DNA from: Curtobacterium sp. MCPF17_002
GTDB taxonomy: Bacteria > Actinomycetota > Actinomycetes > Actinomycetales > Microbacteriaceae
Length of the DNA: 64,000 bases
NCBI RefSeq assembly: GCF_003234115.2
Contig: NZ_CP126251.1
Span: 2,542,001 to 2,606,000, forward strand
Direction: 5' to 3'
Positions 3,412 through 40,934 of this stretch are shown one piece after another (within the stretch, counting starts at the first letter, position 1; each line of letters starts with the position of its first letter). The notes beneath the pieces are model-generated. The model ran no database searches and was not told the origin of the DNA. It saw only the letters and a list, made by a program, of their open reading frames with translations. The position numbers were made by a program, and so were the translations under genes.

Positions 3412-3473
3412 CGCACAACCGAAGTCATCGCGAACCGTGCGATCGCGCGGTTCGGCGGAACTGTGGTTGTGCG
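3412..3473. repeat. 62-bp palindromic repeat, copy A
   Basis: The arms start CGCACAACC and end GGTTGTGCG. The 30-bp arms pair imperfectly around a two-base centre. Two further copies of exactly the same length occur at 38012-38073 and 39142-39203. This copy lies between convergent genes and may double as a transcription terminator. Confidence 0.8.
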
Positions 3474-21770: not shown

Positions 21771-21911
21771 GTGGTGCTCCCTGCGGCTGACGGTCCCCTG
21801 ACCCGTCCATGGGAGCACGTGCTCCGACGCCCCGTACACACGCCAGATCGGGTGCCACCCGACCGGGTGTCCGCCCTTCGGTGGACCAGCGCGTCACCGG
21901 CCACGGGCGGA

Positions 21912-21948
21912 CTGGAGGCGCGTGGCGGCGCCGTCACGCGCCTCCAGG
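21912..21948. repeat. Complete CTGGAGGCGCG hairpin repeat
   Basis: CTGGAGGCGCGTG and its exact complement CACGCGCCTCCAG flank 11 bases. It lies 30 bp downstream of the purK stop, where it may also terminate transcription. Confidence 0.65.
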
Positions 21949-21977
21949 CCGGCAGCGACCGCGTCGTGACCGCAGCG

Positions 21978-35319: not shown

Positions 35320-36135
35320 ATGCGTCTGTACCTTGCGAGTACCTCCCCCGCCCGCCGAGCCCTCCTCGCCCAGTCCGGGATCGAGCCGGTGCACGTCGCG
35401 CCGGGGGTCGACGAGGATGCTGCGGTCGCCGCCGTGGCGTCGGCCCTCGGTCGGGACCTGACCGGTCCGGAGCTCGTCGCGATGCTCGCGATCGAGAAGG
35501 CGGCTGCGGTCGCGGACGCACCGCTCGCGGACGACGCTGCTGCTCCGGCTGCCGGCGCGCCGATCGACGGGTTCGTGTTCGGCGGGGACTCTGCGTTCGA
35601 GGTCGACGGCGTCCTGTACGGCAAGCCCCACGACCCCGCCGTGGCCCGCGACCGGTGGCGGCAGATGCTCGCCGCCGGCGGCGGCACGCTGTGGAGCGGA
35701 CACTGCGTGATCGACCGGCGCCGCGCCCTGGACACGACCGACGACCGGCCTGGAGGCGCGGGGCGGGCCCGCACCGCGCCTCCAGTCCGCACCGTGGACG
35801 CGTCGGGCGGCGGGCCGCTCGGCCTGGCCGGCTCCGTCGCGGACGTCGCGCCCGGCGGATCGGGGCTCGTCGCCGACGGCGACCGCGTCGTCGCGGTCGA
35901 CAGCGCGGTGCTCACCTTCGCCGAGGACATGTCGCCCGAGGAGATCGACGCGTACGTCGCGACGGGTGAACCGCTCGAGGTCGCCGGGGCCTTCACCATC
36001 GACGGCCGGGCCGCCGCGTACATCACCCGGATCGACGGCGCCCCCTCCGCCGTCGTCGGGTTGTCGCTGCCGGTCCTCCGTTCGATGCTGTTGCGGGGCT
36101 TCGGCATCGCCTGGCACGACCTCTGGGCACTGTAG
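35320..36135 (+). CDS. maf: Maf-family nucleotide pyrophosphatase with an internal insertion
   Basis: 271 residues, against roughly 200-220 for typical Maf proteins. LYLASTSPARRALLAQSGI is the nucleotide-binding N-terminus; FGGDSAFEVDG and KPHDPAVARDRWRQML follow, and MSPEEIDAYVATGEPLEVAGAF, IDGRAAAYI and GLSLPVLRSMLLRG close the fold. Between GHCVID and LTFAED lie about 60 extra residues, in the middle of which sits a complete CTGGAGGCGCG hairpin repeat translated in frame. Maf hydrolyses dTTP/UTP or modified nucleotides to limit their incorporation. It precedes accA3, as in mycobacteria. Confidence 0.9.
   Translation: MRLYLASTSPARRALLAQSGIEPVHVAPGVDEDAAVAAVASALGRDLTGPELVAMLAIEKAAAVADAPLADDAAAPAAGAPIDGFVFGGDSAFEVDGVLYGKPHDPAVARDRWRQMLAAGGGTLWSGHCVIDRRRALDTTDDRPGGAGRARTAPPVRTVDASGGGPLGLAGSVADVAPGGSGLVADGDRVVAVDSAVLTFAEDMSPEEIDAYVATGEPLEVAGAFTIDGRAAAYITRIDGAPSAVVGLSLPVLRSMLLRGFGIAWHDLWAL
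35750..35785. repeat. CTGGAGGCGCG hairpin repeat inside maf
   Basis: CTGGAGGCGCG and CGCGCCTCCAG flank 14 bases. The element keeps the maf frame open and falls inside the segment that other Maf proteins lack. Confidence 0.75.
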
Positions 36136-36214: not shown

Positions 36215-37993
36215 ATGCCCCGTATCAGCAAGGTCCTCATCGCGAACCGCGGCGAGATCGCCGTCCGCATCATCCGCGCGGCCCGCGACGCAGGCAAGGC
36301 ATCGGTCGCGGTCTACGCCGACCAGGACCGTGACGCCCTCCACGCTCGCCTCGCTGACGAGGCCTACGCGCTGAACGGCACCACGAGCGCCGACACCTAC
36401 CTCGTCATCGACAAGATCATCTCGGTCGCCAGGCGATCCGGCGCCGACGCCGTGCACCCCGGGTACGGGTTCCTCGCCGAGAACGCCGACTTCGCCCGCG
36501 CCGTCATCGACGCCGGGCTCACCTGGATCGGCCCGTCGCCCGAGTCGATCGAGCGCCTGGGCGACAAGGTGTCCGCGCGCCACGTCGCCGAGAAGGTCGG
36601 CGCACCGCTCGCGCCGGGCACCATCGAGCCCGTGCAGGACGTCTCCGAGGTCGTCGACTTCGTCGACCAGGTCGGTCTGCCCGTCGCGATCAAGGCGGCG
36701 TTCGGCGGTGGCGGTCGTGGTCTGAAGGTCGTCCGCGACCGTGCCTCGGTCGAGGAGCTCTTCGAGTCCGCCACGCGTGAGGCGATCGCCGCGTTCGGTC
36801 GGGGCGAGTGCTTCGTCGAGAAGTACCTGGACAAGCCGCGCCACGTCGAGACCCAGTGCCTGGCGGACGAGCACGGCAACGTCGTCGTGGTCTCCACCCG
36901 CGACTGCTCCCTGCAGCGTCGTCACCAGAAGCTCGTCGAGGAAGCCCCGGCGCCCTACCTGACGCCCGAGCAGCAGACCGCGCTGTACGAGTCGTCGAAG
37001 GCGATCCTCCGCGAGGTCGGCTACGTCGGTGCCGGCACCTGCGAGTTCCTCATCGGCGCCGACGGCACCGTGTCCTTCCTCGAGGTGAACACCCGCCTGC
37101 AGGTCGAGCACTGCGTGTCCGAGGAGGTCACCGGCATCGACCTCGTGCGCGAGCAGTTCCGCATCGCCGAGGGCGGCGTGCTCGACTACGCCGACCCGAC
37201 GCCGCGCGGGCACTCGTTCGAGTTCCGCATCAACGGCGAGGACCCGGGTCGCAACTTCTTCCCGGCGCCCGGCCCCGTGCACGCGTTCAACGCACCGTCC
37301 GGCCCCGGCGTCAGGGTCGACTCCGGTGTCGTCTCCGGCGACGTCGTGTCCGGATCGTTCGACTCGATGCTCGCGAAGCTCATCGTCACCGGTGCCACGC
37401 GCGCCGAAGCGCTCGAGCGTTCGCGCCGTGCGCTGGCCGAGTTCGAGGTGACGGGGCTGCCGACCGTGCTGCCCTTCCACCGCGCGGTCGTGTCCGACCC
37501 GGCGTTCGCCACGTCCGACGAGACGCCGTTCAGCATCTACACGCAGTGGATCGAGACCGAGTTCCAGAACGACATCCCGGCGTGGAGCGGCTCCCCCGAG
37601 GAACTCCCGGAGCCGGCGGCGCGCGACTCGGTCGTCGTCGAGGTGCAGGGCAAGCGCATCGAGGTCACCATGCCGTCGATCGTCGGAGGCGGCGCTGCCG
37701 GTGCCGCCGGTCGTCGTCCGGCCGGCCCCACCGCTCCCCCGAAGCGCCGCGCCTCGGGCGTCCGCGGCGGGCTGGCGTCGTCCGGTTCGGTCACGTCGCC
37801 GATGCAGGCCACCGTGGTGAAGCTCGCGGTCGCCGAGGGTGACACCGTGGTGAAGGGCGACCTGCTCGTCGTGCTCGAGGCCATGAAGATGGAGCAGCCC
37901 GTGCAGGCCCCGCGCGACGGCGTCGTCACCGGGCTGAACGCCCCCGTCGGTCAGACGGTCTCGTCCGGGCACGTGTTGCTCGAGCTGGCGTAG
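36215..37993 (+). CDS. accA3: Acyl-CoA carboxylase alpha subunit (biotin carboxylase + BCCP)
   Basis: 592 residues. The biotin carboxylase domain (1-450) has [47 protein letters not shown] and [13 protein letters not shown] Gly/Ala/Pro linker at about 490-520 leads to the biotinyl domain with EAMKMEQP near residue 558, whose Lys is biotinylated by BirA. It carboxylates biotin for the AccD/AccE complex feeding fatty-acid and methyl-branched acyl synthesis. A TACGCT box at 36201-36206 would give a leader of only about two bases. Confidence 0.97.
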
Positions 37994-38011: not shown

Positions 38012-38073
38012 CGCACAACCAAAGTCACCGCGAACCGCGTCTTTGCGCGATTCACGGTGAGTTTCGTTGTGCG
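38012..38073. repeat. 62-bp palindromic repeat, copy B
   Basis: The outer arm CGCACAACCAAAGTC faces accA3; the inner arm ends GTTTCGTTGTGCG. It lies 18 bp after the accA3 stop and 22 bp from the end of the next gene. It is inverted relative to copy C. Confidence 0.85.
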
Positions 38074-38095
38074 CCGGCCCACCCACCATTGCGGG

Positions 38096-39037
38096 TCAGC
38101 GCATGTGGACGAACGAGCGAGGAACGATCGGAAGGCCAACGCTCCGCAGCACACCCCGGAGCGCGTCCGCGTCGTGTGCCTCTCGCCAGCCGAATCGTCC
38201 GAGCGCTCGGACGTCGGGATGCCGACGAAGGCGGTCTTCTCGACGTTTCTCGGCCACGACGACGTCGGCCGCTGTCGAACCGGCAGCGCGCAGTGCTGGG
38301 TCGAGGTACTTCGCGCGACCGTCGAACTCAAGGACGATCCCCTGCTCGGGGTACCAGAAGTCCACGCGCCCGATGAGGCCCGCTGCGTCGCGGAACTCCT
38401 GCTGGAGGACGGGCCGCGGTGCACCCAGCTCGTCGAGCGCGACCCTTCCGATCGACTCACCCGGCGACCCGCTCGCAGGATCAGCGAGCTCGATGGCGGT
38501 CAGCGCTCTGCGACGGCCGTGCACGGCGTTCCGCTGCTCGACTTCGCCGGTCAGTTCGCGGGAGGTGAGCCCGATCTGCATGGCGGCGTCCAGCGCCGGA
38601 ACCGAGACCCGCAGCTCGTAGGAGATGGCCAGGTCAGCGGCCGTCGTGACGAGGTCCGTGAGCAGTCGTCCGTTCGCGACCATGGAGTCCGTGCGGAGCG
38701 TTCGGCCGGCGCCCGGACGCTTCCGGACGTGTGCGAGCCCCTGGGAAGTCGTCCGCCGGGGATCGATGACGTCGACCGTCTCGGGGAACTCACCAGACCA
38801 GGGCAACCCGTGCAGGGCCGCGGCCGAAGCATGTGAGACTACGAGACGGTCGTGGACGGCCTTGATGCGAGCGATGTGCCGCTCCCCCGGAGTCGCACGG
38901 CGCCACTCATCCGCGTCGACGAAGCGTCCCGGAACCAGTCGGACGAGGGTTCCTGCATCTGCGCGCTGACGAAGCGTTCGTCCACGGCGACCACTCGGGT
39001 CCGCTCGGCCACCGGTGATGATCGTGAGTCGCGCCAT
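38096..39037 (-). CDS. AbiEi-like/DUF559-like protein of unknown function
   Basis: 313 residues. The N-terminal 60 residues (SGRRGRTLRQRADAGTLVRLVPGRF, quoted in pieces: SGRRGRTLRQRADAG and TLVRLVPGRFVD) look like the winged-helix start of AbiEi-type antitoxins. VSHASAAALHGLPW follows. The C-terminal third has VDFWYPEQGIVLEFDGRAKY, a Vsr/DUF559-type endonuclease core with the D...EFDGxxKY pattern, then RREDRLRRHP. Such proteins are common and uncharacterised in Actinobacteria. No AbiEii nucleotidyltransferase partner is nearby, so a toxin-antitoxin role is unlikely. ATG 39037 was chosen as the first Met of the conserved part. Flanked by inverted 62-bp palindromes. Confidence 0.65.
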   Translation of the reverse strand: MARLTIITGGRADPSGRRGRTLRQRADAGTLVRLVPGRFVDADEWRRATPGERHIARIKAVHDRLVVSHASAAALHGLPWSGEFPETVDVIDPRRTTSQGLAHVRKRPGAGRTLRTDSMVANGRLLTDLVTTAADLAISYELRVSVPALDAAMQIGLTSRELTGEVEQRNAVHGRRRALTAIELADPASGSPGESIGRVALDELGAPRPVLQQEFRDAAGLIGRVDFWYPEQGIVLEFDGRAKYLDPALRAAGSTAADVVVAEKRREDRLRRHPDVRALGRFGWREAHDADALRGVLRSVGLPIVPRSFVHMR

Positions 39038-39141
39038 GCCCGGATCATCTCGGGCTGCGCTTCGAGATCTGCCGCTCGCCGGCCCGGATGTGGATGGAGC
39101 AGCACGGAACGCTCCATGTGGAGGAGAGCGCGCAGTGCCGT

Positions 39142-39203
39142 CGCACAACGAAAGTCGCCCCGAGCCGCGCGAATGCGTGGTTCGGGGCGACTTTGGTTGT
39201 GCG
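39142..39203. repeat. 62-bp palindromic repeat, copy C
   Basis: Starts CGCACAACGAAAGTC and ends GACTTTGGTTGTGCG, with near-perfect arms through CCCCGA...TCGGGG. It lies between the DUF559-like gene and the end of the phosphohexomutase gene. Confidence 0.85.
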
Positions 39204-39257
39204 ACGTGCGCGGGAGCGTGCGCGGCGAGCGCGTGCGCCGCGCGGGCGGGACGCGCC

Positions 39258-40934
39258 CTACGAGACGAGGGGGCGCACGGCCGCGGCGAGGGCGTCGACG
39301 AGCGACTGGGCCTCGGCGGGGGTGGACGCCACCGTGTCGATGTAGACCTTCACCTTGGGCTCGGTGCCGCTCGGGCGGACGATCACGCGCGCCTCGCCGG
39401 TCAGGTCGTAGCGCAGGATGTCCGACGGCGGGAAGCCCTCGACCCCGTCGAGGTAGTCCGTCGTGGACACGACGGACAGGTCGCCGAGCGACGACGGCGG
39501 CGACGTGCGCAACGACTGCATGATCGTGCCGATGCGGCTGAGGTCGTCCACGCGGGTCGAGACCTGCCCGGAGGCGAACGCGCCGAACTCCGCGGCGAAG
39601 GCGTCGAGGTGGTCGGCGATCGTCGAACCGGCAGCCGCGAGCTCGTCGGCAAGGGACAGCAGGTCGAGCGCCGCCGAGATGCCGTCCTTGTCGCGGACGA
39701 CCGACGGGTCGACCAGGTAGCCGAGCGCCTCCTCGTAGCCGAACAGCAGGTCCGGCACGCGCGACACCCACTTGAAGCCGGTCAGGGTGTCCCGGTACTC
39801 CAGGCCGTGACGGGCGGCGACGCGCGAGAGCGCCGGCGACGACACGATCGACGCTGCGAGGGTGCCGGTGACCCCGGCCGCGACGGCACGGGTCGCAGCA
39901 CGCCACCCGAGCAACCAGCCCACCTCGTTGCCGGACAGCCGACGGAACGACGGCGCGTCCGACCCGGACACGACCGGGATCGCGAGCGCCAGCCGGTCGG
40001 CGTCGGGGTCGTTCGCGATGACGAGGTCCGCCCCGACCGCGATCCCGCGGGCGATCGACAGGTCCATCGCCCCCGGCTCCTCGGGGTTCGGGAACGACAC
40101 GGTCGGGAAGGCCCCGTCCGGCTCGATCTGCTCCGGCACCACCACCGGCGGAGCGAACCCGGCTGCGGCGAACACCGCGCGCGCGGTCTCCCACCCGACG
40201 CCGTGCATGGCCGTGTACACGACCTTCGGCTGCGCATCCGGTGCGAGTACCGGCGCGGGCACGGTCGCGGCCGTGGCGGCCACGTACGCGTCGAGGAGGG
40301 CCGACGTGGCGACGGTGTAGTCGGTGGCGCGCGGCAGGTCGGTGATCGACCCGGCAGCGACGGCGTCGATGGCCGTGGCGATCTCGCCGTCGACCGGCGG
40401 CACGATCTGGGAGCCCTCGTCCTCACCGCCGAGGTAGACCTTGTAGCCGTTGTCCCGCGGCGGGTTGTGGCTCGCCGTGACCATGACGCCCGCGCCGACC
40501 CCGAGGTGCCGCACCGCGAACGCGAGCACGGGCGTGGGGAGCGCCGACGGCAGCAGGGTGACCTCGAGCCCGAGGCCGCGCATCACCTCGGCGGAGTCGC
40601 GGGCGAAGACGTCGGAGTTGACCCGGCCGTCGTAGCCGATGACGACACTCTGCTGTCGCCCGGTGTCGATGAGGAAGCGCGCGAGCCCCGCCGCCGCCTG
40701 CGTGACGACGACCCGGTTCATCCGGAGCGGCCCGTACCCGAGCTCGGCGCGGAGTCCGGCCGTGCCGAACGCCAGGCGACCGGAGAAGCGGGCGGCGAGC
40801 GCCTGCACCTCGGGCCCGGAACCGTCGGCAGCCGCGGCGATCGCGGCCTCGAGCTCCGACCGGGTGACGGGGTCGGGGTCCTGCGCGAGCCAGGAACGAG
40901 CCGTCGTCAGCAGGGCGTCGAGCGCGATCTTCAC
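39258..40934 (-). CDS. Phosphohexomutase-family enzyme, probable phosphopentomutase
   Basis: 558 residues, the length of the PGM2/PgcA branch. SGRLAFGTAGLRAELGYG and VIGYDGRVNSDVFA at the N-terminus, the phosphoserine loop VMVTASHNPPRDNGYKVYL, the metal site ANDPDADRLALAI, and the C-terminal VRPSGTEPKVKVYI phosphate site. Its start overlaps the purine nucleoside phosphorylase stop (ATGA), and M. tuberculosis has the same deoD-pmmB pairing. PGM2-type enzymes isomerise ribose-1-phosphate to ribose-5-phosphate, which would complete the salvage operon in which no deoB is visible. A phosphomannomutase role for the manC pathway is the alternative. Confidence 0.85.
   Translation of the reverse strand: MKIALDALLTTARSWLAQDPDPVTRSELEAAIAAAADGSGPEVQALAARFSGRLAFGTAGLRAELGYGPLRMNRVVVTQAAAGLARFLIDTGRQQSVVIGYDGRVNSDVFARDSAEVMRGLGLEVTLLPSALPTPVLAFAVRHLGVGAGVMVTASHNPPRDNGYKVYLGGEDEGSQIVPPVDGEIATAIDAVAAGSITDLPRATDYTVATSALLDAYVAATAATVPAPVLAPDAQPKVVYTAMHGVGWETARAVFAAAGFAPPVVVPEQIEPDGAFPTVSFPNPEEPGAMDLSIARGIAVGADLVIANDPDADRLALAIPVVSGSDAPSFRRLSGNEVGWLLGWRAATRAVAAGVTGTLAASIVSSPALSRVAARHGLEYRDTLTGFKWVSRVPDLLFGYEEALGYLVDPSVVRDKDGISAALDLLSLADELAAAGSTIADHLDAFAAEFGAFASGQVSTRVDDLSRIGTIMQSLRTSPPSSLGDLSVVSTTDYLDGVEGFPPSDILRYDLTGEARVIVRPSGTEPKVKVYIDTVASTPAEAQSLVDALAAAVRPLVS

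Follow-up and report, generated by a model that had tools for sequence, protein, structure and literature searches.

REP palindromes are among the commonest repeats in bacterial genomes, and the HuH-type RAYTs are the only enzyme class that we know to be tied to them. The EDxHD homing endonucleases have a Vsr-like fold, and to our knowledge dispersed palindromes are not among the parts of homing systems. Hydrolytic nucleases of the PD-(D/E)XK class make no covalent DNA intermediate. As described in parts of PMC3116915 and PMC8266576, RAYTs are HuH proteins that act on single-stranded REPs with a GTAG tetranucleotide. I-Bth0305I dimerises on a target of nearly 60 bp, according to a section of PMC3943268; MTES_1575 is classed as a restriction endonuclease of the Vsr fold in a passage of PMC3710099, and a DUF559 protein of Caulobacter is called Vsr-like in a passage of PMC12907096. 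A search of the open-access literature returned no published description of a nuclease–palindrome system, and one may exist elsewhere.

A nuclease-like gene between two palindromes

The window is a stretch of 64,000 nucleotides from the 3.82-Mb chromosome of Curtobacterium sp. MCPF17_002 (genome G000). Palindrome types I to IX are our own labels, assigned by eye from core sequences.

3412..3473, no strand: palindrome A, a dispersed geneless copy of type I
36215..37993, plus strand: left neighbour gene, presumably an acyl-CoA/biotin carboxylase (name recognised by eye), a conserved edge of the cassette site
38012..38073, no strand: palindrome B, type I, the right-hand palindrome flanking the gene on its 3' side
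38096..39037, minus strand: gene P0001, 313 aa from ATG, with an AbiEi-like N-terminal region and a Vsr/MTES_1575/DUF559-like nuclease core
39142..39203, no strand: palindrome C, type I, flanking the gene on its 5' side
39258..40934, minus strand: right neighbour gene, presumably a phosphomannomutase (name recognised by eye), whose C-terminal 200 aa were used to locate the home site

Palindromes B and C have the positions and the 62-bp length given in the original prediction, and its third, geneless copy is found at A. At their outer ends, B and C match as perfect inverted repeats over 15 bases, as had been proposed; the accompanying claim of opposite orientation weighs little, because each palindrome is nearly self-complementary. 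The complementarity of C reaches 39139-39206. A consensus with 28 fixed bases, allowing at most 3 mismatches, matches the window at A, B, and C only and matches nothing in 100 dinucleotide shuffles. Single-strand folding against 200 shuffles gives z-scores of -6.0 (B), -10.2 (C), and -5.1 (A). A plain hairpin scan requiring at least 22 pairs finds B and C alone, and nothing in 5 shuffles; A has more mismatches and falls below that threshold. Throughout the genome, the type I end motif occurs at 25 distinct places, all exactly 58 nt long although 43-68 nt were allowed (B is recovered as G000:C1:2580014-2580071), and a control pattern occurs at none. Chance palindromes are rejected by this control, the folding scores, and the shuffle counts.

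Of the cells in 46 type I elements, 91.9% are paired, and changes on both sides (covarying) occupy 70 cells, compared with 25.5 in shuffles (0 of 500). The free inner positions carry this information and the fixed ends do not, because the elements were chosen by their symmetric end motif. Rfam yields sub-threshold miRNA-type and sRNA matches only, as is typical for any hairpin. Between 37900 and 39300 there is one terminator-like match, inside B (0.3 expected), and none at C, which lacks the T-run that follows the GC-rich hairpin of an intrinsic terminator. A second hairpin family (GGACTGGAGGCGCG...CGCGCCTCCAGTCC) is present in the window at 21908-21951 and 35746-35789 and at many intergenic sites of relatives; no tie to the P0001 gene was noticed.

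The sole gene between B and C is, as predicted, one with an EFDGxxKY motif: the 313-aa minus-strand frame contains EFDGRAKY. An alternative upstream TTG start would extend the protein to 350 aa. In alignment A1, which holds 25 sequences of the P0001 family, residues E194, D226, E237, D239, K243, E263, and K264 are invariant (25/25), and dN/dS is 0.13-0.28 in 7 pairs of family members. The protein is thus kept by purifying selection, and the residues that look catalytic do not vary.

The N-terminal part, and only that part, is matched by PADLOC AbiEi models in 21 of the 25 members (best 3.5e-14). A Pfam scan of the same members up to E 1 gives four families, among them AbiEi_4, which matches 2 of 25 weakly; none is a nuclease model. 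P0001 alone has no match in Pfam, so neither MTES_1575 nor DUF559, and a single match in NCBIfam (0.025), judged to be chance. A profile search of solved structures returns four matches, none of them a nuclease (best E 0.18). The own-genome paralogue L024, however, matches DUF559 at 3.3e-6 (above the cut-off) and MTES_1575 at 3.3e-8 (just under the cut-off). In alignment A3, the seven-member group of L024, MTES_1575 matches 2 and DUF559 matches 1. Profile alignment of A1 with A3 gives a probability of 99.6 over 203 columns, motif region included. It is these L024 matches, combined with the alignment of A1 and A3, that tie P0001 to the nuclease group.

A RAYT or another HuH enzyme finds no support, since Y1_Tnp matches 0 of the 25 members (Pfam, up to E 1) and the H-hydrophobic-H motif is absent from all 25. 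Nor is a phage or plasmid gene supported: 50,697 phage records, 72,556 plasmid records, and viral contigs contain no relative of the family.

Palindrome type goes with protein version

P0001 is matched at E 1e-60 in 29 of 60 Curtobacterium genomes, and 28 loci beyond our own were scanned. Hairpins flank the homologue on both sides in 25 of these 28 loci and on one side in the remaining 3, which bears out the expectation that homologues are flanked by palindromes. Homologues without palindromes, which the original prediction regarded as damaging, are found only among some distant paralogues and loci outside the genus.

The home site was located in every genome of the genus (60/60) by the C-terminal 200 aa of the mutase, and the DNA 3' of the mutase was compared. 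A family gene, at least partial, lies between mutase and carboxylase in 57 of the 60 (only partly matched in G041, G044, G054, and G064). By automatic count, palindromes are present on at least one side in 57/57 and on both sides in 47/57; the two-sided total becomes 51/57 because 4 of the 10 one-sided cases have a second hairpin in a separate listing. The most distant genome, G055, has a 29-nt gap with neither cassette nor palindrome. In G050 the gene is absent and a 194-nt gap (L217) holds one lone, worn type II palindrome, likely the footprint of cassette loss. In G053 the contig ends at the home site, and the gene, flanked by two palindromes, is found on a different contig.

About eight palindrome types are found at the home site, type I in 6 genomes, VI in 11, VII in 17, and the others in fewer; types I, II, and III have CACAAC ends in common. 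Complete data from 46 genomes show that similar proteins go with similar palindromes (partial Mantel 0.42, 0 of 2000 permutations) and that similarity of the neighbour gene counts for little (0.07). Left and right palindromes of one locus have 0.43 of 6-mers in common, compared with 0.12 between loci. The palindrome type therefore goes with the protein version and not with the neighbouring gene. The proteins of G001 and G005 differ by 48% and their neighbour genes by 2.9%; for G071 and G067 the figures are 56% and 4.7%, and in both pairs the palindromes are different. In close pairs, similarity at the home site drops off between the ends of the two neighbour genes. Whole cassettes look as if they had been exchanged between close relatives, an appearance that old alleles with recombining flanks would also produce.

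Away from the home site, three paralogues of the own genome (L023, L024, and L025) are bordered on both sides by their own palindromes, of different types; L019 and L022 show one on a single side, and nothing convincing adjoins L020 or L021. For L231 and L232, from the paralogue search in G010, G018, and G046, no flanking palindrome was found, which counts against a REP-like explanation. Two paralogues at G010:C1:1355704-1356610 and 2165046-2165898 look broken, since the match to each falls into two segments that differ in frame.

For the top 80 of 490 relatives from named genomes, hairpins are enriched near the gene relative to far from it 20.8-fold at 39 Curtobacterium loci (at least one side in 33, both in 22) and 17.2-fold at 41 other loci (at least one side in 24, both in 8). 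The 17 of those 41 loci that have no near palindrome weaken the case for a REP-like system. Family genes in other actinobacteria are accompanied, on one side or on both, by different, locally specific palindromes, for example L110 and its relatives in Rhodococcus, L109, L113, and L118 in Blastococcus and Geodermatophilus, and L105 in Cryobacterium.

Dispersed copies and type turnover at fixed sites

The type I end motif is present in 16 of 39 genomes, all among the 24 that belong to Curtobacterium, and in 0 of the 15 from other families. Allowing at most 3 mismatches, the own genome has 34 type I places (control 0). The six genomes with a type I cassette hold 34, 48, 10, 35, 18, and 36 copies (median 34.5; the 10 come from G009, assembled in 790 contigs), whereas the 54 without one have a median of 1, with zero in 21 (P 8e-5). 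Type VI copies number 7-31 (median 17) in 11 cassette genomes against a median of 0 in 49 (P 4e-7), and type VII copies 1-53 (median 18) in 17 against a median of 2 in 43 (P 3e-6). Reversed-pattern controls are 0 throughout.

Each cassette genome was also paired with its nearest cassette-free genome by the neighbour gene, for the 29 of 34 genomes with distances, and the two flanking copies were subtracted. More copies are found in the cassette genome in 24 of 29 pairs (sign P 2.7e-4), in a comparison that uses some partners repeatedly and a neighbour gene that may differ from whole-genome kinship. Dispersed copies of a type are more numerous where a cassette of that type is present. The expected association of many copies with the gene is thus strong overall for types I, VI, and VII, although abundance without the gene, the feared counterexample, does occur for type I in six genomes (G010 30, G018 25, G046 23, G004 18, G044 16, and G067 14). 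These 14-30 copies in gene-free genomes count against the REP-like explanation; in the three of the six that were examined, no type I cassette lies beside any paralogue found. Type VII copies without a type VII home-site cassette number 18 in the own genome, 24 in G008, 32 in G052, and 18 in G067. The own genome has a type I home cassette, and none of its homologues was found flanked by type VII; its 18 type VII copies likewise tell against a REP-like system, as do the mere 2-5 copies per genome in 6/6 Rhodococcus genomes.

Palindromes do not decay significantly where the gene is absent, a further point against the REP-like explanation. Inner pairing is 10.5/14 in 45 gene-minus copies and 11.2/14 in 44 gene-plus copies (P 0.20), for zero-mismatch copies from 3 gene-plus and 6 gene-minus genomes, leaving out G018 and genomes with one or two listed copies.

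For 13 dispersed sites, the flanking DNA was looked for in 9 genomes, and orthologues of 7 sites were compared. The 33 orthologous places carry type I in 8 cases, another palindrome type in 15, and no typed palindrome in 10. The share of 15/33 rests on 7 of the 13 sites, so that the remaining six could lower it, and the other-type counts are not independent, since S257 (type IX) supplies 8 of the 15. At the place orthologous to that of palindrome A, G052 has type VII, G041 type VI, G018 type IV, and G044 and G001 none. Searching 20 sites of G043 in G068 and G008 allowed 20 of 40 places to be compared. G068, which like G043 carries a type I cassette, has a type I or type-I-like palindrome at 12/12, and G008 has type-I-like at 3, VII at 3 (one weak), IX at 1, and an untyped palindrome at 1. 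Single intergenic sites can therefore hold different palindrome types in different species. Hairpins of comparable strength away from family genes occur at 0.07-0.10 per kb, a rate that is not matched to intergenic DNA.

The original prediction looked to empty sites in close relatives; at the compared dispersed sites, neither a clean empty site with alignable edges nor a target duplication was found. At L008, one of the six sites outside the comparison, short spans in G001, G018, and G048 suggest that the palindrome is absent. At site S254, G052, G044, and G041 (L334, L335, and L336) carry roughly 1 kb that contains another open frame, where other species have a palindrome. This frame, which by eye we take to resemble Abi-type proteins, comes from outside the family, and a P0001-family cassette there is rejected.

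Explanations and known systems

Cognate protein–palindrome cassettes with dispersed copies are strongly supported. We interpret them as a palindrome system that resembles REP but uses a different enzyme, with a probability of about 0.55, and it is the movement of palindromes by the enzyme that we infer. The proposal of REP-like logic with a non-RAYT enzyme accordingly stands for the anatomy, which is widespread, for the protein-specific palindrome type, and for the enzyme, which is not a RAYT; its movement component is conditional. The best reading of the sequences is that the nuclease would move or overwrite palindromes. The cassette would be a chromosomal wHTH-plus-nuclease gene between two palindromes of one type. 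Its AbiEi-like region may recognise the cognate palindrome, and its Vsr-like core may nick or cut either the palindrome itself or the cruciform or hairpin that it could form. Repair of the break could then copy the palindrome into new intergenic places, often ones already occupied by a palindrome. With no covalent DNA intermediate, the palindrome would be copied by the repair machinery of the host, as homing elements are, and not by RAYT-like strand transfer. Tentatively, and with the odds against it, we suggest that the enzyme of a new cassette allele might attack palindromes of other types while its own type overwrites them in place, converting the repertoire gradually.

The palindromes could alternatively be cis sites useful to the host (bidirectional terminators, insulators, or nucleoid sites) that the protein binds without moving anything, site and specificity co-evolving. 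The copies that stay present and symmetric in gene-free genomes fit this idea, as do the type-I-like palindromes shared at all compared sites by G043 and G068 and the stop codons of open frames that face G043 sites from both sides in 17 of 19 cases (a raw, uncontrolled count). We nevertheless consider it unlikely: the cassette region offers the lone terminator-like match in B and no T-run at C, swaps between quite different types at the same site would be hard to achieve via point changes, and the nuclease-like residues are invariant. Lower still is the likelihood of a defence or toxin–antitoxin module in which an AbiEi-like regulator is fused to a nuclease, the palindromes are operators or decoys, and allele diversity reflects an arms race. 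The PADLOC matches and the rapid allele exchange at one site would suit such a module, but the AbiEi likeness is confined to the N-terminal part, no AbiEii-like partner adjoins the gene in the window, the family is absent from the phage, plasmid, and viral collections, and dozens of dispersed copies would go unexplained. A further alternative, in which another transposase moves the palindromes as non-autonomous elements and the nuclease gene is a passenger between two of them, would account for palindromes without the gene; it is very improbable, since one gene family would have to accompany each of about eight types, in other genera too.

Returning to the REP-like reading, a single locus of one genus offers about eight versions of the protein with a palindrome for each, so that swaps could test recognition and spread directly; the turnover of palindrome types at fixed sites is itself unusual. 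Like the free-standing and EDxHD homing endonucleases (I-Bth0305I), the family would consist of selfish nuclease genes; a difference is that its genes are not phage-borne. DUF559/MTES_1575/Vsr-like nucleases resemble it through L024, which matches both models and whose profile aligns with that of the P0001 family (99.6), but the passages cited for them mention no link to palindromes, and 'palindrom' has 0 occurrences in PMC12907096. The N-terminal region resembles AbiEi, the regulator of AbiE (type IV toxin–antitoxin), whereas the C-terminus carries a nuclease-like domain instead of an AbiEii partner, and the neighbours are a carboxylase and a mutase.

The likeness to REP/RAYT (TnpA-REP, 'REPtrons'), as set out in parts of PMC3116915 and PMC8266576, lies in dispersed intergenic palindromes, cognate palindromes that flank the enzyme gene, a palindrome class tied to an enzyme lineage, and a chromosomal location that is neither plasmid- nor phage-borne. 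The Curtobacterium enzyme differs from RAYTs in having no Y1_Tnp match or H-hydrophobic-H motif. Within 14 nt of the ends of 17 own elements, GTAG occurs at 0 and CGTC at 3, so a RAYT-type foot tetranucleotide is not seen. The palindromes are about 60 bp long, exchange type at fixed sites, and number tens per genome, where REPs reach hundreds to thousands. If another class of enzyme, unrelated to RAYTs, has the REP/RAYT architecture, then this arrangement arose twice in evolution. The gradual conversion of palindromes suggested above would, if true, add a third mode of palindrome spread to HuH-based REP/RAYT and classical MITE transposition.
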